From the IMG/VR virus record IMGVR_UViG_3300019458_000045, positions 1-50,214 of that record: a DNA stretch of 50,214 nucleotides, one strand, 5' to 3'. The stretch is from a virus. Positions 5,341 to 29,659 of this stretch are shown here, in pieces. The position numbers were made by a program, and so were the translations under genes. Position 1 is the stretch's first letter; each line of letters opens with the position of its first letter. Under the pieces are notes generated by a model that ran no database searches, was not told the origin of the DNA, and worked only from the letters and a program-made list of their open reading frames with translations.

Positions 5341-5692
5341 GTTACCCCAAAATCTCGATCCCAACTCCTTGACCGCCAAGAGGTTACGCAGCACTTTTGA
5401 GGCTCGTATCAAATCCGGCGGGGGTGGTGTCCGAGACCATGCCCGTTCGCCGAACAAGCCAAAGACCCCCCTGCAATCCGCCCTAAGTCGTTGGGACTCA
5501 GCGATTAAGGACACCGATAAGCACTCTAATACGTGCCGTAGCTGCCGAAAGAGGCGACTAAGCAAGGCCAGGGCCGTATCTACCGGCCAAGAACCGTACC
5601 GGCTGTGTGGCCGGGCCCTGGCCCTGTGGAACGCCGAGACGTCCGCATGGCGGGCGTACATACGACTGGGTGGCGGGATTCCGACGAGGTAG
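5327..5692 (+). CDS. small basic Cys-containing protein, 121 aa
   Basis: GTG 5327 (VGRFRLPQNL...) begins inside the end of the upstream gene. The product is very basic and contains a CRSCRKRRLSKAR cluster (CxxC with Arg/Lys) and a further Cys near residue 95. This suggests a zinc-stabilised nucleic-acid-binding peptide. The gene is visibly less GC-rich than its neighbours, a sign of possible separate origin. No family is recognised. Confidence 0.5.
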   Translation: MGRFRLPQNLDPNSLTAKRLRSTFEARIKSGGGGVRDHARSPNKPKTPLQSALSRWDSAIKDTDKHSNTCRSCRKRRLSKARAVSTGQEPYRLCGRALALWNAETSAWRAYIRLGGGIPTR

Positions 5693-5694
5693 AT

Positions 5695-6564
5695 ATGCTG
5701 CACAACAAGGCAAGGCGCATGAGGTCCATGGCCCGCCCGTCCGTCCAGGAGGACGGGACCGTGGACGTGGACGCCATTTCCTACACACAGATCGCCATGT
5801 GGCTCAGGTGCGGGGAGCAGTACCGGCAGCGGTACGTGCTGGGCAAGAAGGAGCCGCCCGCCGTGGCCATGGCCGAGGGGATCGCGCAGCACGCGGCCAT
5901 GGAGGCGGACAACCGGGAGAAGCTGGACCACGGCAAGACCCTGCCGACCAGCCAGCTTACGGCGATCTTCGCCGGTCATTTCGACAAGACCATAACGGAG
6001 TTTGAGGAGGCGTGCGACAGCCTCAAGACCACGCTGGACTGGGGCGGGGAGGACCGGGACGCCATCCTCCTGCGCGGCAAGAAGCACCTGGACAAGTTCG
6101 CCGCCGAGGTGACGGCGAAGATCGAGCCCGAGAGCGCCGAGGAGCCGTTCATCCGGGAGGTACCGGCCGGGGAGCACGGGGAGTCGTTCCGGCTTGCCGG
6201 GCAGGTGGACTTCACCACCAAGTCGCTGGTGGGGGACTACAAGGTCTCCTCCCGGGCCAAGAGCGACCGGGACATCAGGGAGGACTTGCAGTTGACGCTC
6301 TACTCCTGGGTCCGCAAGAAGCACCGGGTGCAGTTCGTTAACTTTGTGAAGGCGAAAGACCCATGGATTCAACTGATAGACCACGAGCGGACGCCGAACG
6401 ACTGGGCCTGGTCCCTGGAGGTGGTGAGCCGCGTGGTGAAGTCCATCCGGGCTGGCCACTTCCCGCTGGTCAACACGACGCAGTACATCGTCCCGCCGTG
6501 GTGGTGTTCGGCGGATCGGTGCGGGTACTGGGCGGATTGCAAGGGCAAGTACGAGAATAGGTGA
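5695..6564 (+). CDS. Cas4/RecB-like PD-(D/E)XK exonuclease with Fe-S cysteines
   Basis: The 289-residue protein begins at ATG 5695, two bases after the previous stop. It has the RecB/Cas4 nuclease pattern: an N-terminal helix with SYTQIAMWLRCGEQYRQRYV (C39), the catalytic GQVDF...GDYKVS core (Asp near 172, Asp181, Lys183), a downstream QLTLYSW helix (motif Q-x-x-x-Y), and three C-terminal cysteines C271, C276 and C282. C39 with the C-terminal trio matches the four-Cys 4Fe-4S arrangement of Cas4/AddB nucleases. It probably resects DNA ends during phage recombination or replication. No CRISPR genes accompany it. Confidence 0.8.
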   Translation: MLHNKARRMRSMARPSVQEDGTVDVDAISYTQIAMWLRCGEQYRQRYVLGKKEPPAVAMAEGIAQHAAMEADNREKLDHGKTLPTSQLTAIFAGHFDKTITEFEEACDSLKTTLDWGGEDRDAILLRGKKHLDKFAAEVTAKIEPESAEEPFIREVPAGEHGESFRLAGQVDFTTKSLVGDYKVSSRAKSDRDIREDLQLTLYSWVRKKHRVQFVNFVKAKDPWIQLIDHERTPNDWAWSLEVVSRVVKSIRAGHFPLVNTTQYIVPPWWCSADRCGYWADCKGKYENR

Positions 6565-6567
6565 GCC

Positions 6568-6723
6568 ATGGCGGTGAGCGAACTGGTCCAGGGCTTGTCC
6601 CAGGACTTCCAGCGGTGGGGGTTGGAGGCTGCTACCCGCGTGGCCTACGGGGTTGGCCAGTGGGGGATTCCTGAGGACAACGTTTGGATTGGCCAGACTG
6701 CCGATGGACGAATTGCCGGTTGA
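6568..6723 (+). CDS. unit A, copy 1 (51 aa to an in-frame TGA)
   Basis: From ATG 6568 the frame reads 51 residues to TGA 6721-6723 and continues open for 64 more codons. The segment is about 40% identical by eye to the segment at 7772: both share ELV, two Ala, RV, GV, WGIP and WIG in register and end in Gly just before TGA. The residues are amphipathic and helical, with no recognised family. The TGA may be a true stop, a readthrough site or a recoded codon (see findings). Confidence 0.55.
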   Translation: MAVSELVQGLSQDFQRWGLEAATRVAYGVGQWGIPEDNVWIGQTADGRIAG

Positions 6724-6918
6724 CCTATCGCGTACGCTGCTGGCCGGATGCCAGGTCAGGATTTTGACGACATTCCCATGGATACAATCCGCTATTCGTA
6801 CATGCAGGTTGATGGTCCTATGGCAGGTCATGTCGTTTCCCTGCCTGAAGGAACTACGGCCAAGGACGTTCTGGCCGCCGCGAGGTTGGCTATCCGCAGG
6901 TTGAAGAGATCCTCCTAG
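6724..6918 (+). CDS. unit B, copy 1: in-frame continuation after TGA, no start codon at the aligned position
   Basis: Directly after TGA the same frame encodes PIAYAAG... and ends KDVLAAARLAIRRLKRSS before TAG 6916. It is plainly homologous to the ORF at 7937 (shared YAAG, QD, LP-GTTAKDVL-AAR, RRLK). Where that copy has ATG, this one has GCG. The first in-frame ATG (6748) would remove the conserved YAAG. The segment is therefore translated by readthrough or recoding, from a rare start (ATC 6727), or not at all. Confidence 0.5.
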   Translation, partial: PIAYAAGRMPGQDFDDIPMDTIRYSYMQVDGPMAGHVVSLPEGTTAKDVLAAARLAIRRLKRSS

Positions 6919-6978
6919 AAGCGTGGGGGGGCCGTAAACGAGCCCCTTAGAACAGTAGGCACCCACGCTTCTAGGGGG
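6911..6978. other. long imperfect hairpin at the 3' end of unit B1
   Basis: CCTCCTAGAAGCGTGGG (6911-6927) pairs with CCCACGCTTCTAGGGGG (6962-6978): 17 pairs with a single G-U. The loop contains a smaller GGGGC/GCCCC pairing. No T-run follows, so it is not a classical intrinsic terminator. It may be an RNA-processing or stability element, or a protein-binding site, between the B1 stop and the next membrane gene. Confidence 0.65.
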
Positions 6979-7014
6979 ATTGCTGAGGAATTCACTCTTT
7001 AGGAGGATGGGCTA

Positions 7015-7368
7015 GTGCAAGATAACCAAGCAGCGGACAAGGCCCTCGACCTACTTAGAGACTTGGCGGGGGTGGTTGGAGGAACAGCAGAGAAACTCTG
7101 GCCGATGGCTGTGGAAGCGACGTGGGCTCGTGGCGTTACCCACCTTGTTTGTGGGACGGCAGGGGCATTGGTCTCCATTGGGGTAGTGTGCTTGGTATTC
7201 CGGCTGACGAGGAACCTGCATTCTGATGACAAGACAACGGCAAGGGCCGCATTCTTTTTCACTGGCCTTATTGGAGGCATCATTTCTTGTATAACGGGGC
7301 TTTCAATGGGGCTTCCTATGGTGTTGGCCCCCCAAGGTATGACGATCTTCAATCTTCTTGGACGCTAA
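7015..7368 (+). CDS. membrane protein with two TM helices, 117 aa
   Basis: GTG 7015 follows AGGAGG at 7002-7007. After about 40 soluble helical residues there is a hydrophobic segment (HLVCGTAGALVSIGVVCLVF) and a second one (AAFFFTGLIGGIISCITGLS), with a charged loop between them (RNLHSDDKTTAR). Its composition is less GC-rich than that of its neighbours. No family is recognised. Membrane proteins in early operons often modify the host envelope or block superinfection, which is only a suggestion here. Confidence 0.6.
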   Translation: MQDNQAADKALDLLRDLAGVVGGTAEKLWPMAVEATWARGVTHLVCGTAGALVSIGVVCLVFRLTRNLHSDDKTTARAAFFFTGLIGGIISCITGLSMGLPMVLAPQGMTIFNLLGR

Positions 7369-7405
7369 GCTGGGGGAGTACTGTGAGGCGGAGGCGTGAC
7401 CTATA

Positions 7406-7762
7406 ATGACACACAAGTCCACCTGGAAGGCCGCCGAGAGGAAGGTCGCCAGGATCTTCAGGACCTCCCGCAGGCCATACTCGGGCGCGGCCGACAGCTA
7501 CGGCAAGGACGACATCATCCACGACAAGGCGTTCGTGGAGGTGAGGCTCCGCAAGTCGTTCCAGCCTGTTCGGTGGTGGCGCAAGGAAGTGGAGCCGGAG
7601 GCGAAAGAGGCCGGAAAGCTGCCGGTGCTGGTCCTGTTCCAGAAGGGGGACGGGCAGCCGTTCGTCCTGTGCCCGCTGGATGCCGACTATCTGCGCAATC
7701 TGTGGGAGTTGATCGGCACGCCGGACGTTATCCTAGCGAAGGACGACGAATCCTGCGGTTAG
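7406..7762 (+). CDS. small PD-(D/E)XK nuclease, Hjc-like resolvase type
   Basis: The 118-residue protein has the compact layout seen in Hjc-like and other phage PD-(D/E)XK enzymes: an N-terminal helix with E11 (WKAAERKVARIF), the loop RRPYSGAADSYGKDD (D35/D36), and the strand FVEVRLRK (E45 with R47, K50). The usual E-x-K is replaced by E-V-R, with K50 close by, so activity is not certain. Length fits the family. It lies in the replication operon between unit B1 and unit A2, which suggests a role in resolving branched DNA. Confidence 0.65.
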   Translation: MTHKSTWKAAERKVARIFRTSRRPYSGAADSYGKDDIIHDKAFVEVRLRKSFQPVRWWRKEVEPEAKEAGKLPVLVLFQKGDGQPFVLCPLDADYLRNLWELIGTPDVILAKDDESCG

Positions 7763-7771
7763 GGAGGAGAC

Positions 7772-7930
7772 ATGAGCAAGCGCGAGTTGGTGGAGGTCCT
7801 GGCGAGGTCGTTCAAGTCGTGGCGCTTGGGTGCCGCCAAGCGGGTGGTCAGTGGGGTCCTCAAGTGGGGGATTCCCCGCAACCTCGGTGAGTGGATCGGC
7901 TTGAACGTCAAGAGACGTATGTCCGGTTGA
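7772..7930 (+). CDS. unit A, copy 2 (52 aa to an in-frame TGA)
   Basis: ATG 7772 is preceded by a strong AGGGAGGAG (7761-7769). The 52 residues align with unit A1 along their length (ELV, AA, RV, GV, WGIP, WIG, final SG). The frame then meets TGA 7928-7930, at the same point as in copy 1, and remains open into the B2 segment. The preserved position of TGA in two diverged copies argues against random decay. Confidence 0.6.
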   Translation: MSKRELVEVLARSFKSWRLGAAKRVVSGVLKWGIPRNLGEWIGLNVKRRMSG

Positions 7931-7936
7931 CCCATC

Positions 7937-8119
7937 ATGTACGCCGCTGGCTGGACGCCGGTTCAGGACTCCAATGACTTCCCTGACGACATTGACCGTT
8001 ACCGCTATAGCTGGGATGGGTGGGGGAACCGCGCTGGCCTGCCTGGAGGAACTACGGCCAAGGACGTGCTGACCGCCGCACGGCGGGCCGTTCGCCGGTT
8101 GAAGGAGAAGAGGAGCTGA
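7937..8119 (+). CDS. unit B, copy 2 (60 aa), in frame with unit A2
   Basis: ATG 7937 lies two codons after the A2 TGA and in the same frame. The product (YAAGW..., basic C-terminus RRAVRRLKEKRS) is homologous to the frame after TGA in copy 1. It could start independently at this ATG, although no ribosome site is evident within 12 nt, or it could be the C-terminal half of a 115-residue A-B protein. The stop TGA is followed directly by the next gene's start region (TGACCAATG). Confidence 0.6.
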   Translation: MYAAGWTPVQDSNDFPDDIDRYRYSWDGWGNRAGLPGGTTAKDVLTAARRAVRRLKEKRS

Positions 8120-8122
8120 CCA

Positions 8123-8584
8123 ATGGCCATCGAGGAAAAGAACTGGCTTCCGTGGGACAGGTACTTCCCGGACCAGGAACTCACGGACGCGGAGAAGGAC
8201 GCCGGGTATGTTAACCTGAATACCCTGGGGTTTTCCGTCGGCCTGCTTGCGTTGTCTCACCTTGCCGATATGGCCCGGGCACAGGAGAGCGGCGGGGGCG
8301 TGGAGTCTGGCGGCATACTGACCGGGTACTCCACGGCCGGACTCATGGAGGCCATGGTGCGCTACGGATCGACCGCGGTCGAGCGCACCCTGGGCCGGGA
8401 TGAAGCCATCCGCTGGTGGAAAATGTGCGTGTTCGACAAGTTGGTCCGCGTTTTGGGTGAAAAGTACCCGGAGGTGGCCAGTCTTCATGTCTGGAAAGAC
8501 AAATCTCCTGGCGGACCCGGCGTGTCGGAAGTGCCCGCTCCACAAGACGGCGGGGACGGTTTGCATCCCAAGCCGGGGAGATAA
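8123..8584 (+). CDS. hypothetical protein, 153 aa, overlapping the polymerase gene
   Basis: ATG 8123 follows GAGGAG of the previous gene's end. Residues 1-118 look like a folded helical protein (DAEKDAGYVNLNTLGFS, DEAIRWWKMCVFDKLVRVLGEKYPEV). The last 30 residues are Pro/Gly-rich and overlap the glycosylase-polymerase gene by 98 nt in another frame, so the C-terminus may be a read-out tail. No family is recognised. Confidence 0.55.
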   Translation: MAIEEKNWLPWDRYFPDQELTDAEKDAGYVNLNTLGFSVGLLALSHLADMARAQESGGGVESGGILTGYSTAGLMEAMVRYGSTAVERTLGRDEAIRWWKMCVFDKLVRVLGEKYPEVASLHVWKDKSPGGPGVSEVPAPQDGGDGLHPKPGR

Positions 8585-10892
8585 GCGCCCCCGCATCCTG
8601 TTCGTCGGCCAGGCCCCGGGGGCGCTCGAGGACGAGACGGGCAAGTGCTTCGTCGGTCCGGCCGGACAGTTGCTCACCCGGGCCATCCGCAAGTACGTCA
8701 CCGTCCCGTACCGCCTGACGAACGCCGTCAAGTGCTTCCCTCCCGGGGACCGCAAGCCCAAGGCGGTGGAGCTGGGGTCGTGCCGGTCCTACCTGGACGC
8801 CGAGGTCCTGCACTACCGGCCGGACATCATCGTGGCCGTCGGGGACGTGCCCCTTCGTCACCTTACCGGCAAGACCGGGATCACGTCCTGGTCTGGCCGC
8901 GTGGCCGGTACCCTCAAGTTCGAGTCGGGGGACACCGAGTCGGGCGTGCCCCCCTACGAGCCCCGGGTGTTCGCGCTGATCCATCCCGCCTTCGTGCTCC
9001 GGGCCCCCGGCAACCTACCCAAGTTCGAGGCCGGGATGCGGGAACTGAACAGGCTGGCCGTGGGCGGGCCAAGCGGCAACCAAGCGCCGGTCTCCGAGGT
9101 GGACCAGGAAGGCTTCTGCAACTTCTTCCTGGCTGCCGGACACGCCGGGAAAATCATCGCCTTCGACTACGAGACGAACGGACATCCGTGGTGGTCCGGC
9201 GGCAAGCTGCGGTGCGTGTCCCTGTCGGATGGGACGTCCGCCGTCTGGATGGACGTGGAAAAGCACGGCAAGGCCGCGCTCCAAGCCCTGTTGCTGTTCC
9301 TGGACAGCCTGTTCCCAAAGGCCGCCCACAACATTTCGTTCGAGACCAACTGGTCCCGGGCGTTGTTCAGCCGGGAGCCCCGGCGTCTCAAGTGGGATAC
9401 GATGCTCCTCCACTACCTGTGGAACGAAAACTCCCACCACAACCTGGAATCGGTGGCCGGGGAGGTGTTGGGCGCGTCCCCCTGGGACATCCACCTGGAA
9501 ATGAAGGGCCGCAAGTGGACGTGGGATACGGTCCCCATGGAGGTCTTAGGTCCGTACAACGCCATGGACTCCTACTGGACGGCGAGGCTTGCGGGCGTCC
9601 TGCCTGAGAGGCTGTCTCCCAACCACTTGAAACTGTACAGGCGGCACATCATCAAGCAGGCCCGGGTATGCGCCCGCATGGAGTGGAACGGAATCCGCCT
9701 GGACCCCACCTGGGCCGAATGTGCGGACAAGTACCATGAGAAGGCGATGTCGGCCATCGAGTCCGAGATCCGCGCCCATCCCAAGGTCACGGCCGTTCAG
9801 AAGAAACTGAAAGACGTCACGTTCAACCTGCGATCCGCCTACCACATGAGGGCGCTGGTGTACGATCACCTGCGGATGCCCGTGTTCGAGCGCACCCCCG
9901 GGGGCTTGCCGTCCACGGCCGAGGAGGTACTGGACCGCCTCAAGGGCCGGTCCCCGCTTCTCGGCCGCATCATGGCGTGGCGGGAGACCGAGACCGTGCG
10001 CCGCAGGTACTTGCAGAAGTTCCCCGCCTACGCGCATACGGACGGCATCGTGCGCCCCGGGTACAACCCGGCCCGGATCGTCCCCGGCCGGATCGCCGTG
10101 ACGGACCCGCCGATGCAGACTCTCCCCACGTCCGCCGTCGTCCGGGGCATGGTCGTCTCGCGGTGGACCGGCGGCAAGATCCTGTCCGCCGACTACAAGC
10201 AGCTTGAGATCCGGCTGGTGGCCAACGAGTCCGGCGACGGCAAGTTGATCCGTTCCATAGCGGTTGGGGAGGACCAGCACGACAAGACCGCAAGTGAAAT
10301 CTTCGGTGGCAAGTTCACCAAGGATGATCGGCTGATCGCCAAGCGCATCAACTTCGGCATCGTCTACGGAATATCGCCATACAGCCTGGCCGCCCAGTTC
10401 AACATGACGGTGGACCGGGCCGAGGACATCTTCCGCCGGTTCCGAAAGGCCCGTCCGATGATTTTCCAGTGGATGGCCCGACAGCACGCCTTCATCGAGA
10501 AGCACGGATACATCAAGTCCCGGTTCGGCCGCAAGCGTCGGCTCCCTGAGATCCGCCACGCGGACGAGAAGCTGAAGGCCCGAATCTTCCGCCAGGCCGG
10601 GAACTTCCCCATCCAGTCCGCCGGGGCGGACATCACCAACCTGGCCATGATCCTGGTGGACCGGGAGCTGCGCAGGAGAAAGCTGAAGTCCCTGCTCGTC
10701 CTGCAAGTCCACGACTCCCTGCTGGTGGACCTGCACCCGGACGAGGTTAACGTGGTGCCCGATCTCGTCGTTAACCTTATGACCAAACAAGTTCAACGGC
10801 TCTGTCCCTGGATGCGCGTGAAGCTGGAAGTGGACGTGTCCGTGGAGGACCGATGGGGAGGCGCGACGAATGTGGGCGAGGCGGCTGCTTGA
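8487..10892 (+). CDS. fusion of family 4-type uracil-DNA glycosylase and family A DNA polymerase
   Basis: From ATG 8487 the protein has 801 residues. Residues 1-200 match family 4 uracil-DNA glycosylases: C13-x2-C16 plus C83 and C99 for an Fe-S cluster, motif GQAPGALED at 41-49, and HPAF near 164. Residues about 220-380 form a DEDDy proofreading domain (AFDYETNG, HNISFETNW, YNAMD). The rest is a family A polymerase with motif A DYKQLEIR (near 569), motif B RLIAKRINFGIVYG (near 615-628, Phe at the Pol I 762 position) and motif C QVHDS, where Ser replaces the usual Glu. It is the replicative polymerase. The fused glycosylase may couple uracil removal to synthesis. UDG-like N-terminal domains on phage polymerases have been described for SPO1-type phages. 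Confidence 0.88.
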   Translation: MSGKTNLLADPACRKCPLHKTAGTVCIPSRGDKRPRILFVGQAPGALEDETGKCFVGPAGQLLTRAIRKYVTVPYRLTNAVKCFPPGDRKPKAVELGSCRSYLDAEVLHYRPDIIVAVGDVPLRHLTGKTGITSWSGRVAGTLKFESGDTESGVPPYEPRVFALIHPAFVLRAPGNLPKFEAGMRELNRLAVGGPSGNQAPVSEVDQEGFCNFFLAAGHAGKIIAFDYETNGHPWWSGGKLRCVSLSDGTSAVWMDVEKHGKAALQALLLFLDSLFPKAAHNISFETNWSRALFSREPRRLKWDTMLLHYLWNENSHHNLESVAGEVLGASPWDIHLEMKGRKWTWDTVPMEVLGPYNAMDSYWTARLAGVLPERLSPNHLKLYRRHIIKQARVCARMEWNGIRLDPTWAECADKYHEKAMSAIESEIRAHPKVTAVQKKLKDVTFNLRSAYHMRALVYDHLRMPVFERTPGGLPSTAEEVLDRLKGRSPLLGRIMAWRETETVRRRYLQKFPAYAHTDGIVRPGYNPARIVPGRIAVTDPPMQTLPTSAVVRGMVVSRWTGGKILSADYKQLEIRLVANESGDGKLIRSIAVGEDQHDKTASEIFGGKFTKDDRLIAKRINFGIVYGISPYSLAAQFNMTVDRAEDIFRRFRKARPMIFQWMARQHAFIEKHGYIKSRFGRKRRLPEIRHADEKLKARIFRQAGNFPIQSAGADITNLAMILVDRELRRRKLKSLLVLQVHDSLLVDLHPDEVNVVPDLVVNLMTKQVQRLCPWMRVKLEVDVSVEDRWGGATNVGEAAA

Positions 10893-18159: not shown

Positions 18160-18861
18160 TTAAAGGGTGAATTCCTCCGCTTCCCCGCGTGTCAGGAAGA
18201 AATGAATCCCGCCCGCGCACTCGATCCACTTATCTGGTTCCCACTTGTGGGCCTTGACCATTTCCCCGGCCCGGTAGGCTGTTACCGCGTCCCGCAGGCT
18301 ATACCCAACATCCGCCCCGATAACGTCCAGGACGCGGACATGAGACGCTCGGCACTTTCGCCCCGTTGCGTTGGAGCGGGCCGCGTCGGCCGGGATTTCC
18401 AGTTTGACGATGACTTCTTTCTCGCCGCCCGGTTCCGCCTTACACTTTTTCCAACCGATGAAGGCCCCCTCCGGGGGCGTGATTTCAGTGGCTGGGAGGT
18501 CCGCCCCCTGGAGGTTCGCCCCCCGGAGGTTCGCCCCCCGGAGGTTCGCCCCCTGGAGGTCCGCCCCCTGGAGGTCCGCCCTCTGGAGGTACGCCCACTG
18601 GAGGTTCGCCCCCCGGAGGTCCGCCCTCTGGAGGTCCGCCCCCCGGAGGTCCGCCCCCTGGAGGTCCGCCCCCTGGAGGTCCGCCCCCTGGAGGTTCGCC
18701 CTCTGGAGGTCCGCCCCCCGGAGGTTCGCCCCATGGAGGTTCGCCCTCTGGAGGTACGCCCCCCGGAGGTTCGCCCCCCGGAGGTCCGCCCCGCCTGCTA
18801 CTGCGGTGGCCACGGATTCCCACTCCCCGATTGTCGAGCCGTCCAAGCGCTTGATCAGCAT
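18160..18861 (-). CDS. pentapeptide-repeat protein with conserved C-terminal domain
   Basis: Residues about 25-125 are an unbroken array of A-[DN]-L-[RQ]-[GR] pentapeptides, which form a right-handed quadrilateral beta-helix. Residues about 135-233 (FIGWKKC, VIVKLEIPADAARSNATGRKCR, ECAGGIHFFLTRGEAEEF) match a domain found after pentapeptide repeats in phage and bacterial proteins (DUF5758 in my recollection). Some pentapeptide proteins mimic DNA and inhibit gyrase; whether this one does is unknown. GGAGG lies just before ATG 18861. The coding DNA is a tandem 15-bp repeat. Confidence 0.85.
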   Translation of the reverse strand: MLIKRLDGSTIGEWESVATAVAGGADLRGANLRGAYLQRANLHGANLRGADLQRANLQGADLQGADLQGADLRGADLQRADLRGANLQWAYLQRADLQGADLQGANLRGANLRGANLQGADLPATEITPPEGAFIGWKKCKAEPGGEKEVIVKLEIPADAARSNATGRKCRASHVRVLDVIGADVGYSLRDAVTAYRAGEMVKAHKWEPDKWIECAGGIHFFLTRGEAEEFTL

Positions 18862-28714: not shown

Positions 28715-28902
28715 TCGTCAAGGGCGAGAATCACGAGGCCGACCCCGCCGTGAATAGGTATCTTACGGAGGGTTGCTGCCCCAACCGTCACGGCCCGCTT
28801 TTCCGGGCGGCCAGGTACGTGGCCGCGTGCAAGTCGTGTGCGTTTACGTGGCGTTCGCGCCGAATCGAGAACATCTTTCCATCGAGAGACGGCAAACACT
28901 AG
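28711..28902 (+). CDS. zinc-ribbon-like protein, 63 aa
   Basis: GTG 28711 overlaps the terminase stop (GTGA). The peptide has EGCCPNRHGPL and ACKSCAFTWRSRR, a C-C...CxxC arrangement fitting a small zinc ribbon. It is coupled to the terminase, so it may assist packaging, but no family is recognised. Confidence 0.55.
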   Translation: MIVKGENHEADPAVNRYLTEGCCPNRHGPLFRAARYVAACKSCAFTWRSRRIENIFPSRDGKH

Positions 28903-28909
28903 GTGCGAC

Positions 28910-29659
28910 ATGGTGAAGCTGCTTTTGCTCGCGGTCGTCCTGCTGGGGGGCTGCAACTACGCCAAGCTGAGTCACCGGGACCTGGAGGCGGCCTATCCGG
29001 CATCGAGCGCCTTCGGCTTGCCGGAAGTGGCAAGCGCCTCCTGTCGTGTCCTGTCCCCAAGCGGGTCGAGCGGGTCCGGCGTTTGCTTTCAGGCCGGGCG
29101 GTCGTATGCGCTGGTGATTACCGCCAATCATGTCGTGGACGAGGGGGACGAGGCCAGCATTTCGCCGGAGAACGGCACCGTTCACAAGGCCCTCGTGGTT
29201 TGGCGGGACGCCGCCGAGGACCTGGCGGTTCTGCGCGTTCCCGGGCGGGGCGTGTTCGGTCGCGCCGCGTCCATGGCCGCCCGGGACCTGGGATACCGAT
29301 GGGACCCCGTGCTGGTGTACGGATTCCCCGCTGGCGTGAAGCCCAACGGGCACCCCACCTTCGGGCTGGTCGCGGCCGAGGATGACGTCCTGGAACTCCA
29401 CGAGCCGACGCCGAACGGCACGTTCAACCACACCCGAACCGTCATCAAGTGGCGGATCACGGCTCCAATCTTCTTCGGCAACTCCGGGGGCGGCGTATTC
29501 GTGTCGGAGGGCGGCGAGTGGCGGCTCGCTGGCGTGGCCCAGTTGGTGGCGGGGTCCGGCTTCGGTGGGGTGGCCACCCACGTCGGGTGGAGTTCCCCGG
29601 TGTTCCGCACCAGGACGGCGGTCGAGGCTGGCCGCAGGGCCGGGGAGGACCACAAGTGA
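28910..29659 (+). CDS. secreted trypsin-like serine protease, lipoprotein
   Basis: I chose ATG 28910, which starts a clean lipoprotein signal (VKLLLLAVVLLGGC, Cys15). The mature 235 residues have the full chymotrypsin-fold triad: H74 in VITANHVV, D104 in EDLAVLRV and S192 in FFGNSGGGVF. Such a protein would be exported and anchored in the host membrane. Its place between terminase and portal genes is unusual, because virion proteases are neither lipidated nor of this fold. It may act in the envelope during lysis, superinfection exclusion or defence evasion. Confidence 0.75.
   Translation: MVKLLLLAVVLLGGCNYAKLSHRDLEAAYPASSAFGLPEVASASCRVLSPSGSSGSGVCFQAGRSYALVITANHVVDEGDEASISPENGTVHKALVVWRDAAEDLAVLRVPGRGVFGRAASMAARDLGYRWDPVLVYGFPAGVKPNGHPTFGLVAAEDDVLELHEPTPNGTFNHTRTVIKWRITAPIFFGNSGGGVFVSEGGEWRLAGVAQLVAGSGFGGVATHVGWSSPVFRTRTAVEAGRRAGEDHK

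Follow-up and report, generated by a model that had tools for sequence, protein, structure and literature searches.

In-frame UGA codons kept in a duplicated gene of tailed phages suggest programmed readthrough

Why would two diverged copies of a gene in one phage genome each carry a TGA at the same internal position and remain open beyond it, in the same frame? The window, that is, the whole stretch of DNA analysed here, is a virus record of 50,214 bases with 63% G+C and a tailed-phage gene set that includes a terminase, a portal protein, a DnaB-like helicase, a PD-(D/E)XK nuclease and a family A DNA polymerase. Both units, each made of a first open stretch (A), a TGA and a second open stretch (B), sit between the nuclease (5605-6564) and the polymerase (8400-10892), in the following arrangement:

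5605-6564, + strand: PD-(D/E)XK nuclease, immediately 5' of copy 1 (Pfam PF12705, E = 1e-14)
6568-6720, + strand: A1, the 51 open codons with which copy 1 begins; ATG start behind an SD-like AGGTGA; alignable with A2 and with the third member, L007
6721-6723, + strand: in-frame TGA of copy 1, context GGT TGA CCT
6724-6918, + strand: B1, the open part of copy 1 after the TGA, read in the frame of A1, 64 codons (6724-6915) and closing TAG (6916-6918); coding-type divergence from B2
7406-7762, + strand: Holliday-junction-resolvase-like nuclease, immediately 5' of copy 2 (phrog_244, E = 2e-6)
7772-7927, + strand: A2, the 52 open codons with which copy 2 begins; strong SD GGGAGGAG
7928-7930, + strand: in-frame TGA of copy 2, context GGT TGA CCC
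7931-8119, + strand: B2, the open part of copy 2 after the TGA, read in the frame of A2, 62 codons (7931-8116) and closing TGA (8117-8119)
8123-8584: predicted gene between copy 2 and the polymerase, overlapping the 5' end of the latter
8400-10892, + strand: family A DNA polymerase, downstream of the units (phrog_17, E = 5e-120)

These coordinates bear out the preliminary description of the locus, in which each copy reads A, TGA, CCY ATC and B in a single frame and copy 1 has GCG as the third codon past the stop where copy 2 has ATG (7937), the codons after TGA being CCT ATC GCG and CCC ATC ATG, respectively. The copies are closer to each other than the ~40% identity then estimated by eye, with a measured amino acid identity of 54% from end to end. 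Used as a query on the window, copy 2 retrieved copy 1 with E = 3e-28 and one TGA inside the match; in the alignment the two TGA codons occupy one column and all gaps are multiples of three. B1 and B2 share 37 of 61 residues (61%). A neutral simulation, in which the same number of base changes was placed at random in 20,000 trials, gave an expected identity of 37% for B (sd 4%, maximum 53%), and none of the trials reached the observed value. Even the eight codons that lead from the TGA to the first ATG of copy 1 encode six identical residues (P = 0.03).

A gene that suffered a nonsense mutation, was duplicated and is now decaying would also leave a TGA shared by both copies. Under this model, both B stretches would stay open with a probability of ~12% (counting substitutions only), and a TGA would be found unchanged with a probability of ~0.23 at the divergence of the window pair and ~0.09 at that towards L007. 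In fact, since the genome is G+C-rich, open runs after TGA are frequent: 52 of the 165 long TGA-ended frames on the + strand of the window then run for at least 60 open codons. The openness of B alone and the identity of the TGA alone are thus each weak evidence, and changes counted by codon position were non-significant for both A and B at the present divergence. Nevertheless, decay is largely refuted, and we regard it as most improbable, by the amino acid identity of B far beyond the neutral value, by gaps that all preserve the frame, by the intact start sites of A and by the presence of a third member in another phage. The strength of the case lies in the combined evidence plus this third member.

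L007 belongs to a second phage, IMGVR_UViG_3300031576_000176 (38,191 bases), has its TGA in the same alignment column and reads MTIVQRLAADFRRWGKNRVRLVKKGVTKHGVIFDRWFNRHGTKG-TGA-PITYAAGWTPQ..., with ~34% identity to copy 2. Its contig was the sole new one with the whole unit in a scan of 2.9 million viral contigs with the pattern G-[TGN]-P-I-x-Y-A-A-G, and L007, with TGA in that column, was once more the sole family member recovered by a second scan, which left the column before the proline unconstrained. The P, I and YAAG of L007, as well as the CC after its TGA, were within the search patterns, so that conservation at these positions is partly imposed. The A half was never included in any search pattern. 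Compared with both window copies, the A half of L007 scored 108, against 43 ± 7 for shuffled sequences (0 of 5000 as high), and it ranked first when 2.16 million residues were searched with a profile of A only (E = 3e-4). In L007, the tail of B after YAAG showed weak similarity (P = 0.02), and the stop of B shares an ATGA with the start codon of the next gene. Across the three genes, the conserved PIxYAAG head of B exhibits synonymous third-base changes in its proline (CCT/CCC/CCG), isoleucine (ATC/ATC/ATT) and two alanine codons (GCT/GCC/GCG and GCT/GCT/GCA).

The two phages are distantly related. Both encode a DnaQ/RNase H-like exonuclease with a zinc-finger-like tail, and the two enzymes show 39% identity over the full length, above the roughly 25–31% found for the exonucleases of the best named phages; the terminase of the window had no match in the second record, which may be incomplete. 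With the exonucleases only 39% identical, the TGA has been retained for about as long as the two genomes have been apart, and through the duplication as well. In both phages, a nuclease-like gene precedes the unit, although the one ahead of L007 (127 residues) is RusA-like by eye and has no profile match.

Beyond these three genes the family was not detected. Searches by tblastn yielded no homologue in 50,697 phage records (queries copy 2, L007 and the consensus) or in 72,556 plasmids (consensus), related-locus searches with B2, the two-copy alignment and the polymerase gave no further member, and L007 was the only family member in the viral contig scans. A scan of 84,980 genomes produced chance matches only, and profiles found no member in ~1,200 genomes of three phyla or in six phages with related replication genes. 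The family matched nothing above noise in Pfam, PHROG and PDB, and a fold search in BFVD and PDB gave no match. As for the homologues by which the preliminary description proposed to judge its reading, our patterns and the searched collections, which may miss members, revealed neither a continuous A-B protein in which an amino acid codon replaces the TGA nor the refuting case of A and B lying apart. AlphaFold2 models of the fusion, built on an alignment of only three sequences, were helical (pTM 0.68 and 0.58), with two helices in A, one long C-terminal helix in B and a middle part of low confidence. They are too weak to name a fold and would fit a short protein to which a module has been added.

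If B is translated, where do its ribosomes come from? Between the TGA and the conserved PIxYAAG there is no ATG, GTG or TTG in copy 1 and L007, and copy 2 alone has one, the ATG at 7937. The preliminary description was right that copy 1 has no start at the conserved place, but it left unmentioned an in-frame ATG at 6748, eight codons into B1; this ATG lies after PIxYAAGR, lacks a Shine-Dalgarno sequence (-2.0 kcal/mol) and is preceded by no ATG, GTG or TTG in B1 before codon 9. L007 has a TTG with a good Shine-Dalgarno sequence ~20 codons into B; placed past the conserved head, it would not account for the conservation of that head. The anti-SD duplexes at the starts of A are moderate in A1 (-4.4 kcal/mol) and strong in A2 (-11.8) and in L007 (-8.2), and those of the candidate restarts at the head of B range from -2.0 to -4.5 kcal/mol. 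Protein-level selection on B up to the stop codon, together with the lack of a canonical start in two of the three genes, leads to either UGA readthrough or a restart at ATC/ATT.

In the restart model, A and B are coupled genes: A ends at the UGA and translation resumes three bases further, at AUC or AUU (AUG in copy 2). The second codon past the stop is indeed ATC, ATC and ATT in the three genes, the spacing from stop to restart suits termination-reinitiation, L007 has AAAGGG 7 nt 5' of its ATT (-4.5 kcal/mol), and in copy 2 a real ATG adjoins the ATC. An ATG, GTG or TTG overlapping or adjoining the stop, as termination-reinitiation would have it, occurs only in copy 2, whereas copy 1 and L007 have ATC and ATT. 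We prefer readthrough because one would expect AUG to arise at a restart site (AUC and AUU are very poor starts and one base change suffices, yet the change is absent in two of three genes), because the proline codon between the stop and ATH keeps its first two bases while the third varies (imposed by the pattern in L007 but not in the window pair), and because no Shine-Dalgarno sequence serves a restart in copies 1 and 2. Moreover, coupling does not require a common frame, yet one is found in all three genes. We consider the coupled-gene model rather unlikely. Several observations count against readthrough itself: the family has three genes, part of the conservation in L007 was imposed by the patterns, the tail of its B is weakly similar, no RNA structure better than shuffled sequences follows the TGA, in copy 1 the codon usage of B is less typical than that of A (-0.11 versus +0.18), and the ATG at 7937 in copy 2, the third codon past the stop and also without a Shine-Dalgarno sequence, could restart translation.

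Programmed UGA readthrough in a UGAC context, yielding A and a minor A-B fusion, is in our estimate the probable reading (roughly 60%). A stop codon kept in frame while B evolves as protein suggests that ribosomes read through it, making two products in a set ratio. The mechanism that we infer, comprising the readthrough itself, the inserted residue, the product ratio and the function, would operate as follows. Each unit would be one gene with a programmed leaky UGA, with ribosomes initiating at A by a normal Shine-Dalgarno interaction. Most of them would terminate at the UGA, given its weak UGAC context, and release A, a protein of ~50 residues forming mostly two helices. A minority would decode the UGA, with Trp (via near-cognate tRNA-Trp) as the most plausible residue, and continue to produce a fusion of ~115 residues bearing the B domain. 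Its likely use would be to provide a fixed low ratio of A-B to A within the replication/recombination gene block, as with the coat and A1 proteins of phage Q-beta; a role beside the recombination and replication enzymes is a guess based on position.

The local context GGT TGA CCN is common to all three genes (its CC being imposed by the pattern in L007). UGAC is a weak termination signal in E. coli, and bacterial readthrough needs no RNA structure. In all three genes, the 80-nt segment starting from the TGA gave no better fold than shuffled sequences (z +0.2 to +1.0, pseudoknots being outside the model). Of the three stop codons UGA is the leakiest, and readthrough depends in part on the next base, a C at position +4 raising it in yeast (PMC5289835). 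We give even odds to the broader proposal that this is a conserved, programmed UGA readthrough gene of tailed dsDNA phages which, retained across duplication and deep divergence without a detectable stimulatory structure, would set the ratio of a short to an extended product in a replication/recombination block and might act as a sensor of the state of RF2 or tRNA-Trp in the host.

UGA might instead be decoded generally as Trp or another residue by the host or the phage, the gene being simply continuous. Bacteria with a UGA-reading tRNA-Trp exist (PMC13092985), and the host could be one of them. However, TGA terminates 9 of 33 genes in the window and 8 of 11 in the second phage, TGG encodes Trp throughout, and ARAGORN found no tRNA gene in either phage genome, so general decoding is very unlikely. 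Selenocysteine insertion would be another way to pass the UGA. UGAC is also the Sec context of E. coli fdhF, and by eye copies 1 and 2 have a suitably spaced weak hairpin. Nevertheless, the fold of the 80 nt from the TGA, no better than shuffled sequences in any of the three genes, gave no sign of a SECIS element, Rfam had no match in the window, there is no redox motif, and the TGN-tolerant pattern recovered no Cys homologue, all family members having TGA. We find this explanation scarcely credible. Three further candidates were rejected: a ribosome hop over the stop would not retain PIxYAAG with synonymous changes, no partner hexamer was found for TTGACC as a -35 promoter box, and an assembly error is excluded by the TGA in three genes on two contigs. 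The interpretation put forward in the preliminary description has thus fared well in that decay is rejected, L007 keeps the TGA column and readthrough fits best, but the AUC/AUU restart stays as its rival.

Several other features of the two genomes were recorded. A very stable hairpin at 6908-6982 (arms of 19 nt, -49.6 kcal/mol, z -6.4) extends across the B1 stop codon just 5' of a membrane-protein gene of lower G+C (7015-7368; phrog_1486, moron class); it may mark the boundary of an inserted moron or serve as its terminator. At 8117-8125, TGACC recurs as the closing stop of B2, with CCA ATG next in frame; the following gene (8123-8584) is therefore in frame with B2, just as B2 is with A2. The start of the 830-residue DNA polymerase frame (8400-8990) resembles by eye a uracil-DNA-glycosylase domain, a possible UDG-PolA fusion. 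On the minus strand, ~20 copies of a 15-nt repeat (18495-18792) encode a pentapeptide-repeat-like protein. A trypsin-like serine protease gene (PF13365) common to both phages (window 28838-29659; L136:15694-16413) is cargo in both genomes.

If confirmed, these genes would represent a bacterial readthrough signal that seemingly depends on local context only and has survived duplication and divergence. Genes of this kind are split or left out by gene callers, and a confirmed case would show how phage genes may be hidden in this way.

Among known systems, the coat/A1 gene of Q-beta, with its UGA readthrough (Weiner and Weber 1973, cited in PMC8310308), offers a parallel: a phage, a leaky UGA and a second stretch in the same frame. 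The features of such a gene are found here as a single stop between same-frame stretches (three genes, two phages) and as a B constrained at the protein level; the head of B has no canonical start in copy 1 and L007, and copy 2 has the ATG at 7937. Q-beta is a positive-strand RNA phage and A1 a virion protein, whereas here we infer readthrough from sequence, in tailed dsDNA phages, for a first product of 50 residues encoded in a replication/recombination block. The RF2 gene, prfB, likewise has an early in-frame UGA followed by C that is conserved across diverged genes, but it continues in the +1 frame by frameshifting, unlike the units here, which stay in the same frame; according to the review, same-frame continuation is not known for RF2 (PMC5009743). 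Like the programmed frameshifting of tailed phages such as lambda, T7 and PSA, readthrough in these units would set the ratio of a short to an extended product (PMC5009743, PMC8310308), although it would do so with no change of frame and in a gene of neither tail nor capsid. Finally, the stop-recoded phages of code 15 also have a stop codon inside their genes, but they recode TAG genome-wide (PMC9523058), whereas TGA elsewhere in the present genomes stays a stop.
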